Shown in pieces: positions 113-53,186 of a DNA stretch of 53,857 nt (position 1 is its first letter; the number at the start of each line of letters is the position of its first letter). Below the pieces are notes generated by a model. It saw only the letters and a list, made by a program, of their open reading frames with translations, did no database searches and was not told where the DNA came from. This DNA comes from Bacteroidaceae bacterium (GTDB lineage Bacteria > Bacteroidota > Bacteroidia > Bacteroidales > Bacteroidaceae): NCBI GenBank assembly GCA_017524545.1, contig JAFXVN010000045.1, positions 1 to 53,857 of the forward strand, in the 5' to 3' direction. The translations under genes and the position numbers were made by a program.

Positions 113-298
113 GCCTCCCCCGACCCCTCCCGAAGGAGGGGGGAACGGAAGAAGGGAGGAAGCACGAGAGTGGTTATACTTGCAGCAGAAAGAGAAGAGA
201 TACGCGATACATTTGCTTTTGCTTGCTATGTCAACCCTAAAGTCATCCCCTGGAGGACGCAGGTCGTTCTCCCCTCCTTTGGAGGGGCCGGGGGAGGC
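113..298. repeat. GC-rich palindromic element with inverted arms, in the 23S-5S spacer
   Basis: The left arm (113-150) reads GCCTCCCCCGACCCCTCCC then GAAGGAGGGGGGAACGGA. The right arm (265-298) is close to its reverse complement and ends GGGGCCGGGGGAGGC. Each arm is itself a palindrome, and the two together form terminal inverted repeats around about 115 bp of unique sequence. The same arrangement recurs at 26945-27086. The element lies inside the rRNA transcription unit, so it must be tolerated during pre-rRNA processing. The apparent short ORFs here are translations of the repeat and are not genes. Confidence 0.8.
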
Positions 299-308
299 TG
301 TTGATATT

Positions 309-419
309 TCAGGTGGTTATAGTGGCGGGGTTCCACCTCTTCCCATTCCGAACAGAGAAGTTAAGCCCGCCCGCGCCGATGGTACTGCACACCCGTGGGA
401 GAGTAGGTAGCCGCCGTTT
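309..419 (+). rRNA. 5S ribosomal RNA
   Basis: Bacteroidetes-type 5S rRNA. The core TTCCCATTCCGAACAGAGAA (341-360) is followed by TTAAGCCC, CGCCGATGGTACTGC and GTGGGAGAGTAGGTAGCCGCC, with the outer helix closing between about 312 and 417. It is preceded by the 23S end in the same orientation and followed directly by a strong hairpin. The ends are assigned by comparison with the usual length of about 110 nt. Confidence 0.92.
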
Positions 420-426
420 TTAGGAG

Positions 427-467
427 AGAAGCCCTTCGAGAGAAATCTCGGAGGGCTTCTTGTGTTT
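427..467 (+). terminator. rrn operon terminator
   Basis: A 15-bp stem starting AGAAGCCCTTCGAGA (427-441) pairs with TCTCGGAGGGCTTCT (446-460) through a GAAA tetraloop with one G-U pair, followed by TGTGTTT. It lies just after 5S and is the likely intrinsic terminator of the rRNA operon. A second hairpin, TTGTTGCGAT-GCT-ATCGCAACAA, follows at 484-506 without a U tract. Confidence 0.85.
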
Positions 468-50478: not shown

Positions 50479-50510
50479 TTAACACATTATATATAATGTA
50501 TAACAACACT

Positions 50511-51821
50511 ATGAAAAAGATTATTATTTCGATGGCATTGCTCCTGAGTGTGGGCACCATCATGGGACAAGTGGACAAAGCAGCACTCAAAGCTGCCCAG
50601 AAAGAAGCAAAGGCACAGATGGAAGAGGCAAAGAAGATAGATGCAGCCATCACCGAAAAGATAAATGCTAAGACAGCTACAGATGAAGAAATCCTGTCCG
50701 AATGCAAAAAGGGACAGGCTCTCATCCGCAAGGCTATCAAGAGTGGCGCAATCGACGACAACAAGCTTGGCGAAGCCTATAAAACCTATGCTGACCTGGC
50801 ACAATTCCCCAACAACACCTTGCTGGCCTATTCACAGAACAAGCAAGCCTTTGACACGCTGTTTTTCTTTACCAACCTCAAGGCACTGACCAATGCTTTG
50901 CAAGGTGAACTTAAATACACAAAAGTCACTAAAGGTGAAACGGGCAATGAGAACTACCTCAAAAGCAAAAAGTCAAATCTGGCTCTCAGTGCCAACTTCT
51001 ACCTCTATGCAGCTCAGCTCTGCAGCGATTGCGGAAAGTACGACAAGGCTCTCGATGCATTCGAGACTGCCATGAACTACACCAAAATCTATCCCGAAGT
51101 TGCCGACCTCGTGAAGTTCCAGATTCCCGAAGTGCAGATTCCCTATTTCGCCTTCCACACCGCTCACGAGGGCAAGATGTACGACAAGATGGAAGCCCTT
51201 TTCGACCAGGCCATGCTGTTCACCGACAATGCAGAAGCCACAAAGAATGTGATGATTGAATCCTACCGCGAACGCGGCGACACCGTTGCATGGGCAAACT
51301 ACGTTCGCCAGCTGACCGTCAAGGACCCCAAGTCGAACGAGAGCTACATTCAAATGCTCATTGGCTATTACATCAAGAAAGAAAAGGAAGCTGGAGGCGA
51401 CACCAACCTTGTTCTGCCCTATGTCGAAGAGATTACCGCCAACGACCCCAACATTCTGATGGCACAGTACGGCAAGGCATATAAGTTCTTCGAGAGCGAA
51501 AAGTACGACGAGGCATTCGATGCCTACCTCAAATGCACAGAGATAAAAAGCGACTACTATGACGCTTGGTATCAGTGCGGCCTTTGCAAGTTCCGCAAGG
51601 CATTAGCCCTGAATGCAACTGTCAGCACAATCAAGAACCAGGTGGAAGCCAAGAAGGCGCTCGAAAAGACAAAAGGTCTTATGGCCGAGGCGATTCCATT
51701 CTTTGAGAAGGCACGCGAGTGCGCTCCCGACGAACCTCAGAAATGGGCTTATGAGCTGCGCCAGTGCTACAACGCAACTGACCAAAAGGAAAAGGCCGCA
51801 GAGATGGACAAGCTGCTTTGA
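50511..51821 (+). CDS. Secreted tetratricopeptide-repeat protein
   Basis: A 436-residue protein with signal peptide KKIIISMALLLSVGTIMG. The ATG at 50511 is chosen over one 15 bp upstream because it gives a proper signal peptide. A charged coiled region (about 25-75) is followed by TPR-like helices, clearest at AAQLCSDCGKYDKALDAFET and KAYKFFESEKYDEAFDAYLK, ending in another TPR-like pair. It is likely a periplasmic scaffold. It lies 32 bp after gyrA and 39 bp before a second TPR gene. Confidence 0.8.
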   Translation: MKKIIISMALLLSVGTIMGQVDKAALKAAQKEAKAQMEEAKKIDAAITEKINAKTATDEEILSECKKGQALIRKAIKSGAIDDNKLGEAYKTYADLAQFPNNTLLAYSQNKQAFDTLFFFTNLKALTNALQGELKYTKVTKGETGNENYLKSKKSNLALSANFYLYAAQLCSDCGKYDKALDAFETAMNYTKIYPEVADLVKFQIPEVQIPYFAFHTAHEGKMYDKMEALFDQAMLFTDNAEATKNVMIESYRERGDTVAWANYVRQLTVKDPKSNESYIQMLIGYYIKKEKEAGGDTNLVLPYVEEITANDPNILMAQYGKAYKFFESEKYDEAFDAYLKCTEIKSDYYDAWYQCGLCKFRKALALNATVSTIKNQVEAKKALEKTKGLMAEAIPFFEKARECAPDEPQKWAYELRQCYNATDQKEKAAEMDKLL

Positions 51822-51860
51822 CCCTTCCTTCCCTAAGAAAGAACAGGGGCAATTCAAAAA

Positions 51861-53186
51861 ATGAATAGGTTCACAATTCATAATATCACAAACAAGTCCC
51901 TTCCCCTAAGTGGAGTGGGGAAGGGACTTGTTCTACTATGTCTGCTTCTTGTCTCTTACCCCACATTTGCCAAAGAAAAGAAAGAGAAGAAGCCGAAGCT
52001 TGAAAAGCTCTCCACACTTCTAAAGAACGCAAAGACGGCAATCAAAGAACAAAAAGACCAGGATGCTGCCCGAAAAGCCTTGCTTGAAGCATTAAGCCGT
52101 CCCGACCTCAAGACAAAGCAGAAAGCTGACATCTATTTTACTACTGCCCTGCTTGATGAGTCGCTCAACAGTGTTGAGAATCAAAAGGCCTACCTGAAGC
52201 AGCCTTACGACACAGCCAAGTTCTTCAACAAGCTATGCGACATGTTCGGACAGCTGAGATTGTGCGACAGCACCGACCTTATCCCCGACGCGAAAGGGCG
52301 GGTACATGCCCGTTTTCAGCAGAAGACACAAGACCTGAGATTGAAGCATCGTCGCAACATATATGGTGGCGGCAAGTTTTATCTTGCCAAGAAGGACTAT
52401 GCTACGGCATATACCTACTTCGACCTCTATTGCACCTACAAGGGGAAAAGGACGAAGAACAAGGGTAAAGAAGAGGCAGATGAGTTCTTCCCGCATTCCG
52501 CGCTATGGGCAACGCTTTCTGCCTTTGAGGTTGACAATTTCCCTGGCACCATCAAACATGCGGATGCGGCCATCTTTTATGCAGATTCAGCCACTGCCGC
52601 CATTTTGCAGGAATACAAAGTGCGTTCCTTTGCCAAGCTGAATAACGACAGCGCATGGGTCGCTTCTCTTAAACAAGGCGTTCTGGATTATCCCGAGCAC
52701 GACTACTTCTTTGTCCAATTGGCAGATTGGTATCATGGGCAGCGCAACTTCGCAGAGGAAGAGCATCTGGCTGACACGCTCATTGCCATTACTGGCGGCA
52801 AGGCTATCCACTATTATGCGAAATCAAAATGCTATCTCTCGGAAGAAAAGTACGAAGCGTGCATTGCTTGTTCAGACAGCACAATTGCGCTTCAGGAGGA
52901 TTTTGCAGACGCATACTACAACAAAGGTATTGCCTATCTCAATATGGCAGTCATTTCACACGAATTGAGCGAAAAGGATGTCAAGAGTCCTCAATATGCC
53001 ATAGACAAGCAAAAGACACAAGAGCTTTATAGAAAGGCGCGTCCATGCATGGAAATGGTTCGCCGCCTGCAGCCAGAGAAACAAGACCGCTGGGCATCGC
53101 CTCTTTATCGCATTTATCTTAATCTCAACCTCGGTGATGAGTTCGTTGAGATTGACCGCCTCCTCAATACCAGACCAAGCAAATAA
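51861..53186 (+). CDS. Second secreted TPR-like protein, signal peptide carrying a palindrome
   Basis: A 441-residue protein with helical repeats (for example YLAKKDYATAYTYFDLYC, YLSEEKYEACIACSDSTIAL) and a lysine-rich N-terminal segment. Its signal peptide is unusual: before the hydrophobic stretch LVLLCLLLVSYPTFA the residues KSLPLSGVGKG are encoded by a perfect 12-bp-arm palindrome (51895-51928). It is probably periplasmic and co-transcribed with the preceding TPR gene; similarity in layout suggests duplication. No enzymatic motif is seen. Confidence 0.75.
   Translation: MNRFTIHNITNKSLPLSGVGKGLVLLCLLLVSYPTFAKEKKEKKPKLEKLSTLLKNAKTAIKEQKDQDAARKALLEALSRPDLKTKQKADIYFTTALLDESLNSVENQKAYLKQPYDTAKFFNKLCDMFGQLRLCDSTDLIPDAKGRVHARFQQKTQDLRLKHRRNIYGGGKFYLAKKDYATAYTYFDLYCTYKGKRTKNKGKEEADEFFPHSALWATLSAFEVDNFPGTIKHADAAIFYADSATAAILQEYKVRSFAKLNNDSAWVASLKQGVLDYPEHDYFFVQLADWYHGQRNFAEEEHLADTLIAITGGKAIHYYAKSKCYLSEEKYEACIACSDSTIALQEDFADAYYNKGIAYLNMAVISHELSEKDVKSPQYAIDKQKTQELYRKARPCMEMVRRLQPEKQDRWASPLYRIYLNLNLGDEFVEIDRLLNTRPSK
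51895..51928. repeat. GC-rich palindrome in the signal peptide of the second TPR gene
   Basis: AGTCCCTTCCCC and GGGGAAGGGACT are perfect inverted 12-bp arms around TAAGTGGAGT. It is translated in-frame within the n-region of the signal peptide. Confidence 0.75.

Follow-up and report, generated by a model that had tools for sequence, protein, structure and literature searches.

Rickettsia palindromic elements are small palindromes that lie in frame in unrelated metabolism genes, several families sharing one genome (PMC10969869). Repetitive extragenic palindromes (REPs) carrying a GTAG or CGTC tag have likewise been described inside genes of several species, often as dimers that add 20-30 aa in frame and with genes for DNA ligase, UvrD/Rep helicase and tRNA synthetase among their targets; recB carries REPs at nearly the same position in two species of Xanthomonas, most REPs are intergenic, and O. 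terrae and R. conorii have the most intragenic copies (PMC3733652). In-frame intragenic palindromes are already known. Here we describe family A, an 85-nt double hairpin and its derivatives, in the genome of a Bacteroidaceae bacterium (GCA_017524545.1, G000 in our comparison; 3,599,404 bases in 85 contigs, 92% complete), taken as a rumen-type gut Bacteroidales; the analysed stretch, called the window throughout, is its entire 53,857-nt contig JAFXVN010000045.1. The form met in this Bacteroidales genome, which has no tag and lies mostly within genes, is a novel variation on these: as the first-pass annotation of the window had supposed, no Bacteroidales case was found in a literature search of partial coverage. 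We propose that family A is probably a mobile element akin to the REP doublets forming hairpins (REPINs), living mainly inside genes, where host codons are usually lost.

The parallel with Rickettsia palindromic elements, drawn already in that annotation, holds in that small palindromes of several families per genome lie in frame in unrelated intact genes, adding flexible peptide. The elements described here differ in size (36-85 nt, against ~150 nt in Rickettsia) and in the phylum that hosts them, and are marked by the absence of host codons, by the use of five reading frames, two of them dominant, and by the sharing of sites with other repeats of related genomes. Tagged REPs are mostly intergenic, whereas most sampled copies of family A lie within genes; the family A consensus has no GTAG tag, and CGTC precedes the stem in 35 of 78 units, the two variable bases there being GT in 35 of 78. 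REPINs consist of two inverted hairpins at a preferred distance and are thought to move as a doublet, singlets being remnants; they have been described from extragenic space and near the genes of REP-associated tyrosine transposases (RAYTs; PMC3116915). Family A shares with them the paired inverted hairpins at fixed spacing (11 of 18 pairs measure 85 nt), but it is found mostly in genes and not beside the RAYT-like genes that were read. Two TnpA-REP subclasses, 2.4 and 2.6, are Bacteroidetes RAYTs, subclass 2.4 being accompanied by REPs inserted in the transposase genes (PMC6006769); GTTGC palindromes in RAYT-like genes of the present group recall the latter, and no link between them and family A was found. 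Compared with family A by description only, the miniature inverted-repeat transposable elements (MITEs) named BrickBuilt in P. gingivalis, which are treated as intergenic (PMC5771137), and the QMITEs of C. burnetii, which sometimes extend or enter open reading frames (ORFs) in frame (PMC5896051), are also small non-coding inverted-repeat elements.

Anatomy and copy number

The full family A element has the ends AGCC...GGCT, and half-elements and hybrids also occur. Altogether 78 units, from the window and from 60 loci of its own genome, fit the pattern (A/G)GCCTCCCCC-NN-CCCCTCC-NNN-GGAGGGG-NGAA; these loci were chosen blind to context from among 100 listed of 118 core matches. The 11 pairs of exactly 85 nt were counted among the 18 A-A pairs recovered by pattern, and their spacers can be aligned and are close to NGAACGGCGAGGCGGCAGGAYGGTTCN. 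One strand of an 85-nt A-A pair folds into a long hairpin (-45.8 kcal/mol, z -9.8), the fold of a single unit being unremarkable (z -1.0). Terminal inverted repeats, as in MITEs, are seen in one element elsewhere in the genome (L023), whose arms pair unbroken across 33 nt, and in one inverted pair of the window (I6; 43 nt, 91%); the window units at 26944-26979 and 46385-46420 are mutually complementary (100% across 36 nt). Inverted-repeat structure was verified at 112-299, 26944-27087, 33142-33223 and 46385-46420. The common ends, length and spacer suggest that the element moves as a unit.

A search with the 18-nt core of family A (at most 2 mismatches) gave 118 matches in the whole genome and 17 with the reversed core as control. 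Its sister, family B (GCCTCACCCCAACCCTCTCC), gave 62 matches against 1 for the reversed sequence (at most 3 mismatches), and A-B hybrid elements exist. Family C (AGACCC...TTAAAGGG) yielded 18 matches in 311 kb of own-genome DNA (at most 5 mismatches). The single CCTCCCC...GGGGAGG family of the first-pass annotation is real as a set of inverted repeats with an enriched core, but merges at least three sequence types; several of its listed copies are genuine and the system extends well beyond the window, the list having missed a copy at 7644-7676. The bare hexamer CTCCCC is not enriched in the window (23 occurrences, shuffle mean 21.3), Rfam at gathering thresholds recovered nothing there beyond 23S and 5S rRNA, and no target-site duplication was noticed by eye in the flanks inspected. 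A further inverted-pair family, ACAACGGATTTCACGGATTTTACGGATT, is present in the window at 544-628, 36072-36163 and 47238-47329, with 15 matches in the 311 kb of own-genome DNA (at most 4 mismatches).

Matches to the A core are present in 31 of the 81 genomes searched, the host included, the richest relatives being G020 (48), G027 (33), G013 (32) and G047 (20). In a public collection, 63 stretches contain exact 29-mers of family A, among them stretches from Prevotella, Hallella, Hoylesella, Flavobacterium and Salinimicrobium isolates; part of these loci come from the same genomes as G013, G020 and G027. Six named isolates hold 3 to 12 core matches each (reversed controls, 0 to 3).

In-frame location within genes

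Frame status was scored by codon usage, with a score trained on the 60 loci themselves, and copies at locus edges were set aside. The coding flanks share one frame that stays open through the element in 53 of the 76 non-edge copies (52 of 75 without L044, a false positive lacking a hairpin, which is included in the first count and left out of the 52-site comparison below). Among the other 23, five have coding flanks on the same strand in another frame, two meet a stop, ten have one coding flank only, three have none, and three have flanks on opposite strands. When the same elements were placed at random in the same loci, 18.6% fell in frame and 43.9% in another frame, so that the observed share is far from the chance distribution that the first-pass annotation had named as a ground for refutation; random positions without any insert were scored in frame in 63.6% of cases. 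The public-collection loci outside Flavobacteriia behave similarly (30 of 55 non-edge copies in frame, against 15.3% for random placement), and in Flavobacteriia none of four copies is in frame. A simpler, permissive gene caller placed 66 of 71 copies within open genes. An over-representation in genes beyond that left by random insertion and purging (66 of 67 copies, 72% expected) was considered and dropped, the caller being permissive and the elements themselves lengthening ORFs.

Judged from their sequences, the inserted genes include those of UvrD, a SpoT-like protein, CoaE, a Clp ATPase, ABC proteins, ThyA, MiaB, TopA, LysS, LigA, a FabF-like synthase, a MutS2-like protein and an RfbD-like protein; several of these genes are essential in other bacteria. 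Nine segments (UvrD-like, CoaE-like, Clp, ThyA, MiaB, TopA, LysS, LigA and FabF-like) were searched for a second copy in a combined search of the own genome, which returned, besides the inserted copies, only paralogues of at most 59% identity; as the genome is 92% complete, an uninserted copy may have been missed.

Comparison with relatives and loss of host codons

The flanks of the 53 in-frame copies, joined and searched as two chimeric queries, matched ORFs of the relatives G027, G084, G005 and G036 (the last for the first query only). An orthologue aligned across both flanks was found at 49 of 52 sites (50 of 53 with L044), in one frame and with up to 96% identity. At 47 of the 52 sites (48 of 53) at least one relative is hairpin-free, meaning that it holds no 6-nt GC-rich palindrome, so that sites with AT-type repeats count as hairpin-free. 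The host has lost bases, on balance, at 40 of these 47 sites (median ~22 nt), by a rough length balance in which single units were set to 34 nt and which is wrong for hybrids (seven values at or below zero). All 11 pairs of exactly 85 nt stand at in-frame sites, and since 85 is no multiple of three, each of them required a compensating change; ten have a hairpin-free relative, and nine of those ten show a net loss of host bases, the MiaB site showing a net gain. Simple insertion, as assumed in the first-pass annotation, describes only part of what is seen: extra peptide is present relative to the relatives, but host codons are usually missing.

Solved structures could be matched to ThyA, LigA, LysS and Fmt. 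Where three relatives have the turn VANGKLSLQ in ThyA, the length being the same in four, the present protein reads VTPPREGTGEAGRLSLQ, and alignment with PDB 6auj places an 8-aa insert at that turn, the flanking conserved residues being intact and the sole other gap being 1 aa elsewhere. The segment is thus absent from the aligned solved ThyA; its presence in distant orthologues was the other outcome that would have spoken against a mobile insert. The insert-bearing segment of ThyA is predicted to contain TPPREGTGEAGR, and that of Fmt ASPVPSEGGGNGE.

Such missing bases are also what would be left by a spread that needs no transposase, in which hairpins induce template switching at stalled forks and re-annealing at microhomology skips host bases, overwriting loop codons. 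Besides the 40 sites, this alternative can call on the Clp gene, in which the net length change is zero and the relatives already hold a partly similar stretch, on the empty fmt site of G027, which already reads AAAGCCTC, and on the lack of any transposase linked to family A. The precise ends, and the 11 of 18 pairs of one exact length with a common spacer, suit a defined mobile unit, and loss of host bases could also reflect later deletion in the lineage; we consider template switching possible, though on the unlikely side. A more far-reaching reading takes family A for a selfish hairpin of a replacement type, whose copies overwrite loop codons and so rewrite the loops of essential enzymes genome-wide with frame and function kept, different families occupying the same loops in sister species. 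This seems doubtful to us; were it true, a bacterial lineage would have an ongoing source of varied loops that depends on no transposase.

The sites themselves are partly shared with other repeats. A relative carries a palindrome of its own (7-nt arms) at 11 of 49 sites, and palindromes were counted in 12 of 112 relative rows, compared with 8 of 448 control stretches nearby (p 9e-7). At LigA and the MutS2-like gene the sharing looks like common descent; the palindromes at the FabF-like gene and MiaB are of other families, and a few of the cases may be coincidental. In G005 and G027 the LysS and phosphomutase-like sites are instead filled by repeats that are not palindromic, such as DNGQQ. In three loci of relatives (L248, L193 and L234), in-frame AT-type repeats (DNGQQ, MVNGQWSMVNG) stand in a LysS-like, a phosphomutase-like and another gene, family A standing there in the own genome.

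Frame usage and encoded peptides

Of 66 units in in-frame elements, 28 are read in the frame giving ASPVPSKGG and 21 in that giving FTPPLEGTGEA, the other four frames accounting for 6, 6, 5 and 0 units (chi-square p 2e-10 against uniform use). Such a bias would be expected if the peptides were made and tolerance were greatest for those that are polar and flexible.

Two further alternatives are confronted by these data. The proteins might never contain the segments, either because these are cut out of the mRNA or because the ribosome passes over them, as the strength of the hairpins and the presence of inserts in genes essential in other bacteria could suggest. Dominance of two frames out of six would then be unneeded, removal would leave deletions because the host codons are gone, and insert lengths vary, with many half-elements; we regard this as highly improbable. 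The peptides do resemble natural Pro/Gly-rich linkers, so that protein-level convergence might be invoked. It is refuted by the frame data, since five frames and both strands are used and it is the palindrome and spacer that are conserved, in DNA, and a family A copy also lies in an rRNA spacer; the chance of this being right is negligible.

Copies in the window

The first-pass annotation counted at least seven translated in-frame copies, and two of these are the solid cases of the window, as judged from the alignments. In fmt (ORF 46246-47244), a 36-nt family A unit on the minus strand (46385-46420) is read as ASPVPSEGGGNG and adds 12 aa relative to G027, G084 and G036; KASKGSG of G027 and G036, or KTSKGAG of G084, corresponds to KASPVPSEGGGNGEVAGSG here. 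The fmt frames of G042 (488 aa) and G048 (432 aa) match in several pieces, which suggests further inserts within a single gene. In the cimA/LeuA-like ORF 32564-34174, an 82-nt family C double hairpin (33142-33223; fold -32.3 kcal/mol, z -6.9) brings 23 aa without counterpart in G005 and G084, and the same site is filled by a different sequence in G027 and G036.

The other copies of that annotation fared less well. The family A unit at 27045-27087 (minus strand) is genuine and read in frame as VLPSFGGDGGGFG in the signal-peptide region of a glycoside hydrolase-like ORF (27003-28865; GH71/99-like in the annotation), but the net length difference from relatives is small, so that the case is weaker. 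The count of two inserts in hemW is not supported. At 13368-13402 a degenerate family C-like unit lies on the plus strand inside the gene, which is on the minus strand; it fits the family C pattern with 3 mismatches (0 in 100 shuffles), a pattern derived partly from this same copy. The protein there is within 1 aa of the length of four relatives, and because the unit adds only ~1 aa it would, if real, be at most a replacement. The second, a composite AGCCCCC...GGGGGCT element at 13988-14110, is flanked by the conserved HemW start and by the stop (14111) of the ORF upstream. The trmB segment (24888-24913, plus strand) shows no net insert, G084 and G027 having slightly more residues there, and its membership of the family is unsupported. 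The palindrome in the N-terminal region of a tetratricopeptide repeat (TPR) ORF (51894-51930) is not supported as a repeat, no second copy having been found in the 311 kb of own-genome DNA at up to 1 mismatch. Neither of the last two belongs among the solid cases.

Copies were also placed outside genes. An inverted pair of family A units (112-148 plus, 265-299 minus; 112-299 overall) occupies the 23S-5S rRNA spacer, and the unit at 26944-26979 (plus strand) lies directly past the stop of ORF 25139-26941, which is BipA/TypA-like from its sequence. The overlooked family C unit at 7644-7676 (plus strand; AGACCCTCTCTAACTCTCCCTTAAAGGG...) is in frame in the C-terminal end region of ORF 3275-7762 (1495 aa), as TLSNSPLKGE. 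Repeats of family E (CTCTGTGTCCTCTGT...) stand in frame at 40821-41644, at the linkers of ORF 39150-42056, and are partly extra relative to G005 and G084. This ORF (minus strand, 968 aa) joins CarA to the N-terminal half of CarB, with CTCTGTGTCC repeats in frame at the linkers; the matching ORFs measure 938 aa in G084 and 947 aa in G005, and the idea that the repeats produced the fusion was rejected, the fusion being present in these two relatives as well. An AT-rich repeat (39074-39110), with further occurrences in the window, lies in the gap (39068-39149) that separates this ORF from the next (37223-39067).

Spread of family A

If family A is a mobile REPIN-like element, the A-A double hairpin with its defined ends would be the full unit, and single hairpins and A-B hybrids its derivatives. 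Fresh copies would arrive all over the genome, and any that put the gene out of frame or introduced a stop would be purged. In-frame copies would be translated and retained, probably where the protein has loops or linkers, since stop codons are rare in the element and the peptides read from two of its frames are small, polar and made of Pro, Ser, Gly and Glu. Host codons would be lost at landing or soon afterwards, so that the element would often replace a loop rather than merely lengthen it. The proteins presumably tolerate such inserts.

A number of observations weigh against this explanation. In the public collection, the 30 in-frame loci are all from records titled metagenome-assembled genome (MAG) or uncultured, and none of the five non-edge exact copies among named isolates is in frame. 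Whether random insertion and purging account for the few extragenic copies depends on the gene caller. Translation of the inserts is a deduction from DNA, the frame preference could be due in part to the codon phase of the target, and a single-sequence structure prediction of Fmt (mean pLDDT 39) was unusable for loop position. On the side of the mover, all six matches to RAYT models in the own genome fall under the NCBIfam cut-off, and no family A unit was found around five of these six places. None of the 63 loci with exact A copies yielded a match to a profile of three own RAYT-like proteins, and counts of RAYT-like and family A matches correlate weakly (rho 0.27, p 0.06, 49 genomes). A different palindrome, GTTGC...GCAAC, is found within or beside the ORF in 4 of 16 distinct RAYT loci of the same genus.

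The metagenome-type origin of the in-frame loci, and the named isolates being poor in copies and without an in-frame case, would also suit ordinary extragenic REPs that appear within genes through pseudogenes, wrong ORFs or assembly error. This we hold to be extremely improbable, as the flanks align to orthologues in one frame at the identities given above, several assembly projects agree, and no second intact copy of the nine segments was found in the own genome.

Which enzyme would move the element is the least certain part of the mobile-element explanation. A tentative candidate is a RAYT-group Y1/HUH transposase that would work in trans on single-stranded hairpins. It is a guess weakly supported by two observations: the own genome has the six RAYT-like matches, and genomes with at least 8 A matches have slightly more RAYT-like matches (two-group p 0.046). 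Near RAYT genes, an A-like unit lies ~0.4 kb from a Salinimicrobium RAYT, a B-like unit ~0.8 kb from a RAYT of G047, and a family C pair upstream of the RAYT-like locus L003. The GTTGC palindromes stand at 1238, 1705 and 2348 in L279 (open frame 1105-2319), at 609 in L002, at 1533 and 2137 in L270, and at 1617 in L286. The RAYT-like proteins of L001, L002 and L003 have a long C-terminal region without a Pfam match.

Implications

In-frame palindromes have so far been described as a peculiarity of Rickettsia and, in most species, as the smaller part of the REPs. Here, a gut genome of ~3.6 Mb carries tens of in-frame palindromes in core enzymes, and many sister species are at hand for comparison, so that tests come within reach of how selfish DNA is turned into protein, of the sites at which it is tolerated and of whether insertion replaces host sequence. 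Repeat-derived segments may also enter into work on rumen Bacteroidales proteins, in annotation, structure prediction and phylogeny alike. In this lineage, ordinary and even essential proteins appear to take up a DNA repeat as it spreads.

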